Part shown: piece by piece, positions 2,477-41,706 of the stretch
Layout: the number at the start of each line of letters is the position of its first letter
Position numbering within the stretch: the stretch's first letter is position 1
Source of the DNA: Chloroflexus aurantiacus J-10-fl
Lineage (GTDB): Bacteria; Chloroflexota; Chloroflexia; Chloroflexales; Chloroflexaceae
Reading direction: 5' to 3'
Length of the DNA: 64,000 nucleotides
Assembly (NCBI RefSeq): GCF_000018865.1
Contig: NC_010175.1
Location: 186,001 to 250,000 of the forward strand
Program-made: the position numbers and the translations under genes
The notes under the pieces: model-generated
What the model saw: only the letters and a program-made list of their open reading frames with translations
The model's database searches: none
What the model was told of the DNA's origin: nothing

Positions 2477-3307
2477 CTAGCCGTGATCGGGGACACGAGC
2501 CATCCGTTGGGCAATCTGTACCCGATCCGGTAATGCCATATCACCGACTCCCTCAACAACACATGCCGCCGCCGCAGCAGCAAAGTGAGCCGCTCCTACC
2601 GGATCGCCGGTTTCCCACAGGCGAATCAGAAACGCGGTGGTGAAGACATCACCGGCGCCGGTTGGATCACTCTCTTGGGCAGGAAACGCCGGGATGTGAT
2701 GCGGTTTACCGTGGATGAAGAGGGTGGCACCCGCTGCCCCGTGGGTCACGATCCCGATTGGTACCAGCCGGGCGTAATACGCAGCTAGCTCATCATCACC
2801 GGCGACATCCTCGCTGCTGAGCGTCAGAACGTGGAGATGCCTCAGTTCCGCAGGAGTCGGTCGCCAGCGTCGAGGCCGGATCGGTGTTGGCAGATCGGTA
2901 TTCCAATCGCGTAACCAGCCTTGTGCAGTTGCGCCAATCAGGGCACCAGGAAACGCACCGGCCAGGTCTGGTGAACACTCATGCAGTACCGGCCCCAACA
3001 GCACGATTGGCGCTGTCCGCCATGCCGCCGGTAGAGCGGTGACCGGGATAGACGGCGCAATCGCATGTAGCCATTGCTGCCGTCCGGCAGGTGTGTAGCG
3101 ATTCTCGAAGGTAGAACTGAACGTTGTGGGCAGGCTGATCCAGGCAACGCCAGGCGGAGCAGGCTCGACGCTGGCCGTCACAATGGCTGCACGCAGGCCA
3201 AGGCGCTGGGCCAGCAGAGCAGCAAAGCGAGCTGTACCGCCAGGAGCAGTAGTCTGCTGCGGTAACAAATCACGGGTAACGTGGCCGATGGCAACAAATT
3301 CGATCAT
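2477..3307 (-). CDS. PfkB-family carbohydrate/nucleoside kinase
   Basis: A 276-residue ribokinase-like protein. The N-terminus (FVAIGHVTRDL, then GGTARFAALLAQRLG) is the substrate-side start of PfkB kinases, and DPTGAGDVF near residue 225 is PfkB signature 2, with the aspartate that acts as catalytic base. The ribokinase family phosphorylates sugars, nucleosides or related small molecules with ATP; the substrate cannot be told from the sequence. The start at 3307 was chosen because the conserved fold begins there; the frame is open further upstream to 3418 but those residues are unlike the family. It is monocistronic and convergent with kimA. Confidence 0.8.
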   Translation of the reverse strand: MIEFVAIGHVTRDLLPQQTTAPGGTARFAALLAQRLGLRAAIVTASVEPAPPGVAWISLPTTFSSTFENRYTPAGRQQWLHAIAPSIPVTALPAAWRTAPIVLLGPVLHECSPDLAGAFPGALIGATAQGWLRDWNTDLPTPIRPRRWRPTPAELRHLHVLTLSSEDVAGDDELAAYYARLVPIGIVTHGAAGATLFIHGKPHHIPAFPAQESDPTGAGDVFTTAFLIRLWETGDPVGAAHFAAAAAACVVEGVGDMALPDRVQIAQRMARVPDHG

Positions 3308-3437
3308 CGTGGAGTGACTCCAATTACATCGAACTATGCATAATGGTGTGCAGATTATACCAGAGAGGTGCGCGAAGGGGAGGTTGGGGTTGGCGGGTTC
3401 ATAGATCGGCGGGTTCATAGCCCGGCGGCTTAAAACC

Positions 3438-3670
3438 TTGCCTCAATTCGCGGAAGGCCGGCAGGGCTGCCTGGTGGCGGGGTGTGGGTGCCGGGCGGCG
3501 GGTTTCATGGGTCGGCGGGTTGAAACGCTGCCTCAATTCGTGGAAGCCCCTCCGGGGCTGCCTGGCAGCGGGGTGTGGGTGCCGGGCGGCGGGTTAATTC
3601 ATCGGCGGGTTTCAGGAGTCGGTGGGTTAAAACCCTGCCTCAATTCGTGGAAGCCCCTTCGGGGCTACCT
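3438..3670. repeat. GC-rich tandem repeat, 90-107 bp units
   Basis: Three imperfect units share TAAAACCCTGCCTCAATTCG, then GGAAGCCCCTCCGGGGCT, then GGCGGGGTGTGGGTGCC; the CCTCAATTCG marker falls at 3441, 3531 and 3638. The GCCCC(T/C)CCGGGGC part can fold into a hairpin. A related unit lies at 26540-26640. The third unit is interrupted after 3670 by the inserted element and resumes at 4545. I see no gene from 3308 to 4652. Confidence 0.75.
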
Positions 3671-4544
3671 CTATGCATTACCCACATGTCACGCTGCGTT
3701 AGGCCAGGCTGCAAGCACTCTCTGTGGCGCGGGCTTCCAGCCCGCGTGCCGGCATCATCGCCACCGCCGTCAGGTGCTGGCCGTGGCCGCTGGTGCGCAG
3801 GCACGAACCAAGTGTAACAACACCGCTACGCCCAGGTATCGCATGTATGCCTGACTGACTCGATGATTGTCACGAGCACATCCAGTACCGCCGTGACCAG
3901 GATGGGTAACGGTGGGCCACGCGCCGGATCGTGAGCACGGCTGGCGCGGCAGCATGGCTGCCGCACTCCAAACTACGCGACACGGGTAATGGTGGTCGGC
4001 AACGGTATCGACACTGAAACGTGATCCCACTGTGCGCAGAGCTGCGGGGTAACCGCTGCGACCTCCACGTGATCGCGAGCGCGGCTGGCGCGGCAGCATG
4101 GCTGCCGCACTCCAAACTACGCGACACGCACATGATGCGTGAGTAAGGCAACCCATCCGGCACGTGATAGCACGGCTGGAGCTGCGCGCTATCACCGGGC
4201 CAGTTGCCCACAACAGCATCCATAGCGATCATCACCGCTGATACGCACGTAGTTGACACCAGGTATGGGTAATGCGTAGCCGGGTGGGAGAGGGGAGGGC
4301 AGACATTTGATCGAGGGCTTCCTGATAGGGTAGACGTTGTATTCGTTCATCTATCCTGGCCGTCCGTGAATGCCGCCAGGGGCGGGAGCTTGCGTTTGGC
4401 TCCTCCCTCCAGCACTGGTACCGGCACCATGCGCGCCGGAGGCGCGCGCTCCCAGCTCCCGGCTGGGGAGCACACCCGTCATCACGCCCCCGACCCGCGC
4501 CGGCACGCGGGCAATGCAGTATTCGCGTTATGGGTAATACATAG
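3671..4544. mobile_element. Non-autonomous insertion element with terminal inverted repeats and 10-bp target duplication
   Basis: The left end CTATGCATTACCCA (3671-3684) is the inverted counterpart of the right end TGGGTAATACATAG (4531-4544), with one mismatch. The element is flanked by a perfect direct repeat, GGGGCTACCT at 3661-3670 and 4545-4554, and removing it restores a normal unit of the surrounding tandem repeat. A further inner end, TGGGTAATGCGTAG, lies at 4266-4279, so the insertion may be composite: a 609-bp core homologous to 31869-32346 plus a 265-bp extension. It holds two copies of the GCGGCAGCATGGCTGCCGC core (3946-3973, 4090-4117). No transposase-length frame is present. Confidence 0.75.
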
Positions 4545-4652
4545 GGGGCTACCTGGCGGCGGGGTGTGGGTGCCTCCAGCCCCAACGGGGCTTACATGCT
4601 GTCAGGGATGGCTTTAGCCCACCTGACCCGGCGGGGCTACCCGGCGGCGGTA

Positions 4653-5549
4653 CTAAGCCACCACAGTCTGCTCACCAACTTTACGCAACCACGGCAAGAG
4701 AATATCGAGAAATGCAGCCGGTGTCTCATCGAACGGACAATGACCGCTGTCGGGGATGATTTTGATCTCGGCGTGTGGGATCATCCGTTGCCTGATAATT
4801 TCGGCATGGGCGGGTGGAATCGAGCGATCTTCGGCTCCCCAGATGAGGAGCGTGGGTTGTTTAATTTCGCCGGGCGTAAGGTCGAGGACTAGATTGGCAA
4901 ATTCACGGCTGACTTTCAGGTATGAACCTGCACCATAACGGCGAAGCGGGCCACTAAATAGCTCAACCAGCTCCGGGGTGACACATTCTTTGCGATGGTA
5001 CGCCGACAACAACCCCTGCCGTACCCCCCAGCGATTGCCGAATACGCCGGCCAGTGCCTCGCCAATCAGCGGTGAACCTATGGCATCGAGCATGAAACGA
5101 TCAAAGGTGCTGAGTGGCCGTGCCTGTAACTGTGCTCCTGAGCTGTTGACCAGAACCAGGGCATGTACCAGATCAGGGTAGGCACGCGCCAGTTGCGCGC
5201 TGACCACACCTCCCATCGAATGACCAACCACCACCGCCGGACGACCAATCGTATTGCGGATCAATGCTGCGGCCTGGGCTGCCCACCGTTCGCGACTGGG
5301 CCGACCGGCAGGCCGCGCCGAGTAACCGAAATAGTAGAGATCGAGAGCGTATAACGTCTGTTCACCGGCAATTGCTCTCATCACCGGACGCCAGTGTTCG
5401 ATGAGGGCACCATACCCGTGGATCAAGAGCACCGGCAAGCCCTGGACGGGTGAGGACATCCAGACCCGCATTAAGCCATCAGGGCCACTGCGGTACTCCT
5501 CCCGAATCTCAAATTTGCGGGTGGTATTGATTTCGGTTGGGGTTGACAT
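4653..5549 (-). CDS. Alpha/beta hydrolase-fold protein
   Basis: The 298-residue protein shows the expected landmarks: an oxyanion-hole HGYG near residue 44, the nucleophile elbow GHSMGG with the catalytic serine near residue 110, an aspartate in WGAEDRSIPP and a histidine in DSGHCPFDE. The cap region lies between about residues 145 and 225. The reaction (esterase, lipase, lactonase or C-C hydrolase) cannot be decided. The start at 5549 has GAGGA seven bases upstream. It is read on the same strand as the DUF4097 gene behind it, but a strong terminator at 5583-5625 lies between them, so it is probably transcribed alone. Confidence 0.85.
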   Translation of the reverse strand: MSTPTEINTTRKFEIREEYRSGPDGLMRVWMSSPVQGLPVLLIHGYGALIEHWRPVMRAIAGEQTLYALDLYYFGYSARPAGRPSRERWAAQAAALIRNTIGRPAVVVGHSMGGVVSAQLARAYPDLVHALVLVNSSGAQLQARPLSTFDRFMLDAIGSPLIGEALAGVFGNRWGVRQGLLSAYHRKECVTPELVELFSGPLRRYGAGSYLKVSREFANLVLDLTPGEIKQPTLLIWGAEDRSIPPAHAEIIRQRMIPHAEIKIIPDSGHCPFDETPAAFLDILLPWLRKVGEQTVVA

Positions 5550-29984: not shown

Positions 29985-31481
29985 ATGCACCAGCCTTCAC
30001 TCATCGGCCCGGCGATCCTGATTGTGCTTCTGATCACGCTGCCCCTGGCTTCCATCGGCGATCTGATCCTGGATCAGATCGGCTGGCAGCCGTTGTGGTT
30101 GATCGGTGCCAGTATCATCGCCGGTATGGAAGCGTTTGCCTTGCGGATGCGGATGCTGGCCGGCCTGCACGAAGCGGAAGGTGGCACGTTGCGCTATCTG
30201 GCCGCCGAGATTTTTGCGCTGGTTGTGCTGGCCCGGCTGGTAGCGACGCTGGGCTTCGGCGGCGAGGGTATCCGGGCGATGATGAGCTGGATCACTGATC
30301 CATTGGCCTTCTTCGATGTTCCATTTCTCATCTGCCTGCTGGCGCTGACTACGGTGGTGATGCTCAGTCGGAGCGGGATCGCTGCCATCGCGGCCATAAC
30401 ACCAAATCCACCCCAAAAAATGCCCCTGTACACTCTCGACGTACTCTTCTACAACAGCGACGCAAAAATTCGCCGCTGGAATGCAGTCAAAGCGATCATC
30501 AGCGGCGTAAGCTGGGGCGGGTTGTTGATCATCTGGCTCCAGAGCTGGCGGCCAGGGAATGCAGATGCGTTTTCCGGCTGGATTGCGTTGTATCTGATCG
30601 GCGGACTCAGCCTGATCGAGCTTGCCCGCCGGCGGGCGTCCCTGGCCGACTGGCAGAGCGATGGTGCCGAGGTCGCGGTTGATGTGCAACGAAGCTGGCA
30701 CCTGCTGAGCGTAATGCTCATCGGTCTGATGATCGTGCTGACGCTGGTATTTCCCTTCCCCCGCGAGATGTCCATGCCGGAAGAATGGCGCCGGGCCATC
30801 TACTCACTGGTCGGGCTGGTCATCTTCATCGGCCTCATCGCATCGCTCCTGTTCGTCGGCCTGATCAGTCTGATCATGCTGCTGCCAATGCTCCTCTACC
30901 TGCTGCTCAACTGGCTCCTCACCACAAACTCAACCTCCGCCGCGATGCCCATCCCGCAGCCGCCGCTCATTCCTCCGGCCACCGCCAGCGAGCCGATGGT
31001 ATGGCCCGGCCTTATCTTCTGGTTCTGTGTAGCCGTGCTCACCGTGCTGGCGTTCTGGCGGATTGCGCGCCGCCAGACGTGGCTGAAGGCGGCATGGGTG
31101 AATGCCGTGACCTGGCTGACGGCCTGGTGGCACCACCTGCGCCACCGGCGTATCGGGGGCTGGCCGCACTGGTGGCATTCGCAAGAGGAGCCGCCTCCCC
31201 CACCACACTCACGGTGCAGCCGCAGCGGGCCGGTGGATACGGTGATTGCCTGCTACCATGCTGCGCTCCGTCACGCCACTGCGCGTGGCTACCCCCGCCG
31301 GCCACCGCAGACCCCGGCAGAGTATGCGGAACGGATCAGCGGCGAGTTACCCGCAGGTGCCGCCGAATTACAGGCGCTCACCGAGGCGTATCAACGGGTG
31401 GTGTATGCCGGCAAGCCCTTCGACCGCTCCGAACGGCGACAGTTTAGCGCGTTATTGCGTCGCTTTCGGCGTAAAGTGTGA
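29985..31481 (+). CDS. Multi-spanning membrane protein with C-terminal DUF4129
   Basis: A 498-residue protein with about eight or nine hydrophobic segments up to residue 355, then a basic, tryptophan/histidine-rich linker and a C-terminal DUF4129 domain (CYHAALRHATARGYPRRPPQTPAEYAER). DUF4129 usually follows a transglutaminase-like domain or stands beside DUF58/MoxR genes; neither is seen here. Function unknown. It is divergent from the PBP gene (108 bp apart). GGAGGGG precedes the ATG. A heptanucleotide repeat starts directly behind the stop. Confidence 0.78.
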   Translation: MHQPSLIGPAILIVLLITLPLASIGDLILDQIGWQPLWLIGASIIAGMEAFALRMRMLAGLHEAEGGTLRYLAAEIFALVVLARLVATLGFGGEGIRAMMSWITDPLAFFDVPFLICLLALTTVVMLSRSGIAAIAAITPNPPQKMPLYTLDVLFYNSDAKIRRWNAVKAIISGVSWGGLLIIWLQSWRPGNADAFSGWIALYLIGGLSLIELARRRASLADWQSDGAEVAVDVQRSWHLLSVMLIGLMIVLTLVFPFPREMSMPEEWRRAIYSLVGLVIFIGLIASLLFVGLISLIMLLPMLLYLLLNWLLTTNSTSAAMPIPQPPLIPPATASEPMVWPGLIFWFCVAVLTVLAFWRIARRQTWLKAAWVNAVTWLTAWWHHLRHRRIGGWPHWWHSQEEPPPPPHSRCSRSGPVDTVIACYHAALRHATARGYPRRPPQTPAEYAERISGELPAGAAELQALTEAYQRVVYAGKPFDRSERRQFSALLRRFRRKV

Positions 31482-31482
31482 G

Positions 31483-31617
31483 ATAGGAGATAGGAGATAG
31501 GAGATAGAAGATAGGAGATAGGGGATAGGGGATAGGAGATAGGGGATAGGGGATAGGGGATAGGAGATAGAAGGTAGAAGGTAGAAGGTAGAAGGTAGGA
31601 GATTAGGAGATAAGAAG
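31483..31617. repeat. Heptanucleotide tract (GGAGATA)n, first locus
   Basis: About 19 heptamers with variation at two positions (GGAGATA, GGGGATA, GAAGATA, GAAGGTA), starting immediately behind the TGA of the DUF4129 gene. Confidence 0.9.
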
Positions 31618-31868
31618 ATAGTGGTTGAAGTGCCGGGGCTGTCGCCTTCAGCAGTTCAGGGATAGAAAGGGTGCAGTCAGATCACATCTGGTTGACCGGA
31701 GCGCATCGCTTTTGCTCCCCCATCACACGGGCGACGAGCTGATTTTTGATGTAGCACACCGCCACCTTCCTCCAGCGGGAGGAGGCCGGGAGGGGGGCGG
31801 GAATGAGATGCATGGGAGCTATGCAGAGCACGCCTTCACCCCCTGCCCCTCTCCCGCGCCCCAGCGCG

Positions 31869-32346
31869 CTATGCATTACCCACATGTCACGCTGCGTTAG
31901 GCTGGCTGCAAGTGCCCCCTGTGGCGGCTCCCCGTGGCGCAGGCTTCCAGCCTGCGTGCAGGCATCCTCGCCACCGCCGGCAGGTGCTGGCCGTGGCCGC
32001 TGGTGCGCAAGCACGAATCTCTTGCAACATAACCACCTACACGTAGGGGTCGCATGCATGCCTGACCGACGCGATGATCGAAACAAGCACATCCAACACC
32101 CTCGTGACCAGGATGGGTAACGGTGTACCACGCGCCGGATCGTGTGTACGGCTGGCGCGGCAGCATGGCTGCCGCACTCCAAACCTTGCGCCACGCGCAT
32201 GATGAGCGTGTAAGGCAATCCATTCAGCACGTGATAGCACGGCTGGAGCAGCGCACTGCCACCAGTCCAGTCGCCCACAACAGCACCTATGGCGATCATA
32301 CCGGCTGATACGCACGTGGTTGACACCAGTTATGGGTAATGCATAG
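31869..32346. mobile_element. Second copy of the inverted-repeat element, 478 bp
   Basis: The ends CTATGCATTACCCA (31869-31882) and TGGGTAATGCATAG (32333-32346) are exact inverted repeats. The body matches 3671-4279, including TCACGCTGCGTTAGGC, a CAGGTGCTGGCCGTGGCCGC stretch, the hairpin core (32157-32184) and ACGCACGTGGTTGACACCAG near the right end. Flanking CCAGCG occurs on both sides with a two-base offset, so a target duplication is not clear. It carries no gene. Confidence 0.7.
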
Positions 32347-40110: not shown

Positions 40111-40130
40111 TGGGTTATGCATAGTATAAT
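40111..40130 (+). promoter_or_regulatory. Promoter of meh next to an element-end-like sequence
   Basis: A perfect TATAAT lies at 40125-40130, 56 bp before the meh ATG; no good -35 is seen at the normal distance. It directly abuts TGGGTTATGCATAG (40111-40124), which differs by one base from the right end of the inverted-repeat element. Two GAGTTAA direct repeats, 11 bp apart, lie at 40046-40063 between smtA and meh. Confidence 0.45.
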
Positions 40131-41038: not shown

Positions 41039-41247
41039 GAGGAGGGAGGAGATAGGAGATAGGAGGTAGGAGATAGGAGGTAGGAGATAGGAGGTAGGAG
41101 GTAGGAGATAGGAGGTAGGAGATAGGAGGTAGGAGATAGGAGATAGGAGGTAGGAGGTAGGAGATAGGAGATAGGAGATAGGAGGTAGGAGGTAGGAGAT
41201 AGGAGATAGGAGGTAGGAGATAGGAGATAGGAGATAGGAGATAGGAG
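41039..41247. repeat. Heptanucleotide tract (GGAGATA/GGAGGTA)n, second locus
   Basis: About 30 heptamers in which GGAGATA and GGAGGTA alternate irregularly, beginning nine bases behind the meh stop after a GGAGGGA stretch. Same sequence family and same position relative to a stop codon as 31483-31617. Confidence 0.9.
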
Positions 41248-41290
41248 GGCTAACGACTATCTCCGGTCTAATGAGACGTAGGATTGATTG

Positions 41291-41706
41291 CTTTGCCCGC
41301 TCGGCATGCACGTGGCGCGTAGTTTGGCGGGCGGCAGCCATGCTGCCGCAGCAGCCGCGCTCACGACCCAACGTGTGGCACGCCGTTGACAACATCATCC
41401 AGTAATGATGAAACAGGTGCTACTTGCCTTGCCCGCTCGGCATGCACGTGGCGCGTAGTTTGGCGGGCGGCAGCCATGCTGCCGCAGCAGCCGCGCTCAC
41501 GACCCAACGTGTGGCACGCCGTTGACAACATCATCCAGTAATGGTGAAACAGGTGCTACTTGCTTTGCCCGCTCGTGATGCGCGTGGCGCGTAGTTTGGC
41601 GTGCGGCAACCACGCTACCGCACTGCAAGCACACGCTTGATTAATTGCCTTGCCCGCTCGGCATGCACGTGGCGCGTAGTTTGGAGTGCGGTAGCCATGC
41701 TGCCGC
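41291..41706. repeat. 136-bp tandem repeat containing the GGCAGCC hairpin core
   Basis: Two almost identical 136-bp units (41295 and 41431 marker GCCCGCTCGGCATGC), a diverged third from 41567 and a fourth from about 41653. Each carries TAGTTTGGCGGGCGGCAGCC followed by ATGCTGCCGC, that is the hairpin core at 41322-41349, 41458-41485, 41594-41621 and 41679-41706. Confidence 0.85.

Follow-up and report, generated by a model that had tools for sequence, protein, structure and literature searches.

A gene-less element family of Chloroflexus aurantiacus, probably moved in trans and now orphaned, that shares its ends with a Tn5-like insertion sequence

The IS50 subgroup of the IS4 family, which includes Tn5, consists of elements of 1350-1550 bp that generate target duplications of 8-9 bp (PMC2266710). 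Bacterial MITEs, among them Correia/NEMIS, ERIC, Nezha and QMITE2, have been reviewed (PMC10969869), and ISRm22 of Sinorhizobium meliloti is an IS4-family element with copies inserted in REPs (PMC1525189). The elements described here resemble all three systems in part. The insertion sequence (IS) that shares their ends is like the IS50 subgroup in its order of transposase domains, its DDE residues, its end consensus, its duplication of about 9 bp and its size (1474-1484 bp), but it differs in having a lineage-specific end sequence, resident copies that are both damaged, duplications that range from 7 to 11 bp, and symmetric targets that are C-rich on one side and G-rich on the other. The elements without genes are like bacterial MITEs (PMC10969869) in being short and non-coding, with inverted ends, target duplications, a high copy number and a location mostly outside long genes. 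Unlike these, they have Tn5-type ends, an end motif that was not found in sister species, and lengths of 289 bp to 3.8 kb that arise when tails are captured and internal units are amplified in tandem. As with ISRm22, an IS4-family element goes into dispersed palindromes, but here just 15 of 52 insertions are in one palindrome type and the units moved are mostly MITEs. In the papers searched, among them the parts of the genome paper that deal with repeats and transposons, we found no earlier description of this MITE family. The family is new but of an ordinary kind, and its chief points of interest are its copy number and its insertion into the centers of GC-rich palindromes.

The window is the whole 64,000-nucleotide stretch that we analyzed, which corresponds to C1:186001-250000 of a genome of 5,258,541 bp. 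Positions below are those of the window unless C1 is given. The features of the focal element and of a second family member are:

3496-3670, plus strand: tandem-repeat units, the paralogous empty site
3661-3670, no strand: left copy of the 10-bp target-site duplication GGGGCTACCT
3671-4544 (C1:189671-190544), plus strand: composite MITE of 874 bp, delimited by the repeats at its ends, the duplication and the joining of the flanks
3671-3684, plus strand: outer end of IRR type, starting CTATGCATTACCCACATGTC (CTATGCATTACCCA)
3671-4279, plus strand: 478-type MITE core of 609 bp, which includes an internal 144-bp duplication, placed by alignment to the 478-bp element
3927-3984, plus strand: first 58-nt copy of the internal duplication, with the GCGGCAGCATGGCTGCCGC hairpin
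4071-4128, plus strand: second 58-nt copy, 144 bp downstream and 97% identical
4266-4279, minus strand: inner end of IRL type, CTACGCATTACCCA on the minus strand
4280-4544, plus strand: 265-bp tail module with the outer right end at its terminus
4531-4544, minus strand: outer right end, TGGGTAATACATAG on the plus strand (CTATGTATTACCCA on the minus strand)
4545-4554, no strand: right copy of the target-site duplication GGGGCTACCT
31869-32346, plus strand: another member of the family, 478 bp long, whose 14-bp ends match perfectly

A preliminary description of this locus had reported inverted ends at 3671 and 4531, a perfect 10-bp duplication on both sides, and the restoration of a normal tandem-repeat unit when the insert is removed. 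All of these were borne out. The two outer ends, CTATGCATTACCCA and CTATGTATTACCCA (the reverse complement of TGGGTAATACATAG), are alike at 13 of 14 positions and are flanked directly by the two copies of GGGGCTACCT. When the flanks were joined with one copy of the duplication retained, they aligned to the adjacent repeat unit over 88 bases without gaps and with 9 mismatches, which indicates that the insert breaks up a single unit. The ends and the duplication do not belong to the tandem repeat. Within the same genome, adjacent repeat units provide the empty site; among the sister loci examined, no other genome showed a base-exact one. In G003, the only sister genome shown to retain the kinase-hydrolase pair, these two genes are still adjacent and are separated by an 871-bp spacer that lacks the element. 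This spacer also lacks a matching tandem repeat, so the empty-site evidence consists of the adjacent repeat units. The other sister loci had no kinase match within the stretch examined.

The focal element also contains a third, internal end (4266-4279) that was absent from the preliminary description. Across the 64-kb window we observed 12 end-like matches vs 4.1 +/- 2.2 in shuffled sequence, which is well beyond chance, as are the end and duplication counts for the whole genome given below. A solitary end-like match, CTATGCATAACCCA, occurs at 40111-40124 on the minus strand with no partner end nearby, and the window also holds two heptamer tandem arrays (GAGATAG at 31480-31621, 20 copies; AGGAGAT at 41047-41247, 29 copies). 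In a mechanical ORF listing, the region 3600-4600 has short frames only, and there was no Rfam match in 3300-4700.

The absence of a transposase from the element had led to the suggestion that it was moved in trans, and that a full element with the same ends and a transposase might be present. Such an element does occur in the genome, together with a second, more damaged copy:

C1:766523-768006: same-ended IS of 1484 bp with the 9-bp duplication GTTCCCCCC and a Tn5/IS50-type transposase of the IS4 family
C1:21936-23100: second resident IS copy, deleted, with extra stops and the same TAG

The transposase frame of the 1484-bp IS has 459 codons and is open apart from the TAG. It matches PF14706, PF01609, PF02281 and NCBIfam NF033590, all above cut-off (domain names Tnp_DNA_bind, DDE_Tnp_1 and Dimer_Tnp_Tn5), and aligns to the solved Tn5 transposase with E 9e-48. 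Both ends of both resident copies meet the IS50-subgroup end consensus CW------Y---CA-A--W- (PMC2266710), which fits seven of the eight ends tested; the focal right end is one position off this consensus. The right end of the MITE resembles the left end of the IS (IRL-like) over about 36 bp, and its left end resembles the right end of the IS (IRR-like) over approximately 23 bp. The focal interior and the IS are alike only over these ~20-36 bp at the ends. A 1474-bp element in an Anaerolineae MAG (L236) has the same ends and an uninterrupted transposase that is 60% identical to the resident one, and its flanks share only a 6-bp match. From these comparisons of sequence, it is highly probable that the MITE family was mobilized in trans by an IS of the IS50 subgroup with the same ends and that it has probably been orphaned since.

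In the mechanism that we propose, the Tn5/IS50-type transposase of the same-ended IS would have moved the MITEs in trans by cut-and-paste. By analogy with Tn5, it would bind ends of roughly 20 bp, pair one IRL-type end with one IRR-type end, cut out the element and join it to the target by staggered cuts of about 9 bp. It would prefer a symmetric target with a C-rich left arm and a G-rich right arm, often with a CCCCAGCGGGG center. The 874-bp copy would use the outer, second end beyond the 265-bp tail. The sequences themselves show common ends, target duplications, a transposase element with those ends, a lack of coding homology inside the MITEs, and composites bounded by their own duplications. 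Counting against the proposal are the 7- and 11-bp duplications, which fall outside the published 8-9 bp range of the IS50 subgroup, the one-position misfit of the focal right end, the single near-identical pair among the 478-type copies, and the failure to find an intact same-ended transposase in the search of this genome or a base-exact empty site among the sister loci.

In this strain the family has probably been left without a working transposase, because the sole near-complete one has an in-frame amber TAG at codon 354, 3' of the catalytic D88, D185 and E324, as well as Asn331 (AAC) at the position of the YREK Lys. The YREK motif is complete in IS1165 (decayed) and in L236. A search of the transposase genes of this genome revealed no intact same-ended transposase, and its other DDE_Tnp_1 genes gave no match to the resident transposase at E <= 1e-5. 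The best-surviving alternative, although improbable, is that the family is still mobile here, either through read-through of the amber codon or because a truncated 353-residue transposase that retains the three catalytic residues works. The amber codon is common to both resident copies, which are only ~78% identical in DNA, so it may be old; in addition, the remainder of the frame is open and one MITE pair at two loci is 99.4% identical. However, Tyr (TAC in L236) occupies the amber position in the closest relatives from other genomes, and the YREK substitution is in the best resident copy. Polarized changes 3' of the amber codon are distributed 7/3/6 by codon position, which is no third-position excess, albeit with small numbers. 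The truncated form would also be without the Tn5 dimerization domain (PF02281, residues 356-439). We give even less weight to the possibility that the interrupted transposase is a working, down-regulated form that acts on MITE ends by read-through or as a truncated protein. If this were true, a seemingly dead insertion sequence would still drive about 150 MITEs.

The 478-bp element at 31869-32346, which the preliminary description had recognized as a relative, is 99.4% identical to a copy at C1:1140120-1140597, and its flanks have only an imperfect 8-bp duplication (CCAGCGCG/CCAGCGGG). Among 40 full copies of the 478 type, the median pairwise divergence is 14%. Copies are 7-11% off their consensus and there is one near-identical pair only (0.6%), with the remaining copies 5-13% from their nearest neighbor. 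These values seem to fit an old burst with scant recent movement. Per-site variation in the same 40 copies is 0.027 and 0.018 in the end 14-mers vs 0.095 in the interior, making the ends 3-5 times less variable, which may stem in part from choosing copies by alignment to a full-length query. The best-conserved interior stretch, on a par with the ends, is the palindrome GCGGCAGCATGGCTGCCGC, and a similar hairpin is found in a 136-bp tandem repeat at 41288-41622.

The proposal that the focal element is MITE-like or composite held up on both counts. Its core is 82% identical to the 478-bp element over positions 1-327 and 85% identical over 270-478, and it is followed by the 265-bp tail. At 874 bp the composite is longer than the usual MITE size of a few hundred bp, which the 478-bp type fits. 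The tail has about 25 sizeable matches in the genome, most of them adjoining a 478-type core, and it lies beside such a core at approximately 18 places. Several further tail-bearing elements have duplications at their outermost ends, which suggests that the transposase has acted on inner as well as outer ends. It is very unlikely that the 874-bp copy arose when a 478-type MITE landed beside a tail that was already present. Elements of the 478 type do move alone, with the duplication directly at the inner end (C1:180313-180778 and C1:2632008-2632486), but the focal duplication adjoins the outer ends at 3671 and 4544, and the recurrence of the core-tail pair and the outermost duplications of the other tail-bearing elements also argue against separate arrival. 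The 874-bp element is a composite, and this composite type moves as a whole. Partial MITE units of 374, 384 and 239 bp, with a right end in every unit, form tandem arrays in elements at C1:3832234-3836063, 3001755-3003768 and 2112229-2115497. In the first of these, the 374-bp units are enclosed by one CCCAGCGGG duplication. Two arrays break near a common internal position, at ~236-240 of the 478-bp element.

The genome contains roughly 150 gene-less elements that share the Tn5-like IS ends. A search with the 14-bp end, allowing up to one mismatch, gave 303 matches (150 + 153) vs 0 for the reversed control, and 0-1 matches in each of seven sister Chloroflexus species. A 20-bp end pattern had 207 matches in this genome, none in the seven sisters and 1-4 in each of four other genomes of the family. 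The census of elements covers approximately 461 kb around known sites, so its counts are minimum values. Of 251 convergent end pairs less than 5 kb apart, a perfect duplication spanned 8 bp or more in 30 and 9 bp or more in 24; as a control, 9534 cross-locus end pairs gave 114 and 66, respectively. Under a laxer rule we accepted at least 52 elements with duplications, with lengths of 289 to 3830 bp; since this rule lets through about 3% of random pairs, a few of the 52 may have passed by chance. Duplications are most often 9 bp long (25 of 52 elements; range 7-11 bp). The least probable reading is that the ends form a dispersed repeat, regulatory or REP-like, that only resembles a transposon. 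In its favor, copies are very numerous, many have no detected duplication and tandem arrays hold repeated right ends. It is ruled out as the main explanation because 30 pairs of inverted ends have perfect duplications that differ in sequence, because the focal target unit is restored and because two species have a transposase gene framed by these ends.

Beyond this species, the same ends are also found in MAGs of Anaerolineae, Roseiflexus and Armatimonadota. Scanning contigs of other genomes with the end pattern yielded 110 stretches, chiefly from Anaerolineae, other Chloroflexota and Zipacnadia (Armatimonadota), with many short same-ended elements that have duplications of 9-11 bp. By contrast, a protein-based scan of the same contigs found no relative. 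A single end match came from the viral collection, on an IMG/VR contig (L334). In a Bacillota MAG (L231, 762-4030), a 3.27-kb same-ended element carries a decayed related transposase that is split by a further long frame running on the other strand.

Insertions favor a symmetric C-rich/G-rich target, often the center of the dispersed palindrome CCCCAGCGGGG. In 52 rebuilt target sites, C was present at -2 in 41 and at -4 in 40, and G at +2 in 42 and at +4 in 40; 15 of these sites have CCCAGCGGG or its complement. The palindrome CCCCAGCGGGG is itself dispersed, with 187 copies here and 438 and 252 in sisters G002 and G005, which both lack the element. The remaining sister species have 2-47 copies, and controls were near 0. 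Hairpin-specific targeting beyond the symmetric consensus could not be demonstrated: when arms were swapped between sites, this genome gave 3.65 vs 3.57 pairs of 8, and 18 foreign sites gave p = 0.08. In a rough, annotation-free comparison, 33% of insertion points were inside an ORF of at least 150 aa vs 82% of random points in the window.

With approximately 150 copies in one species, none found in seven sisters and the same ends in distant MAGs, this family can be followed through what was likely horizontal arrival, then a burst and the loss of its driver. Its many insertions also provide a target profile of a Tn5-type transposase beyond the laboratory element.
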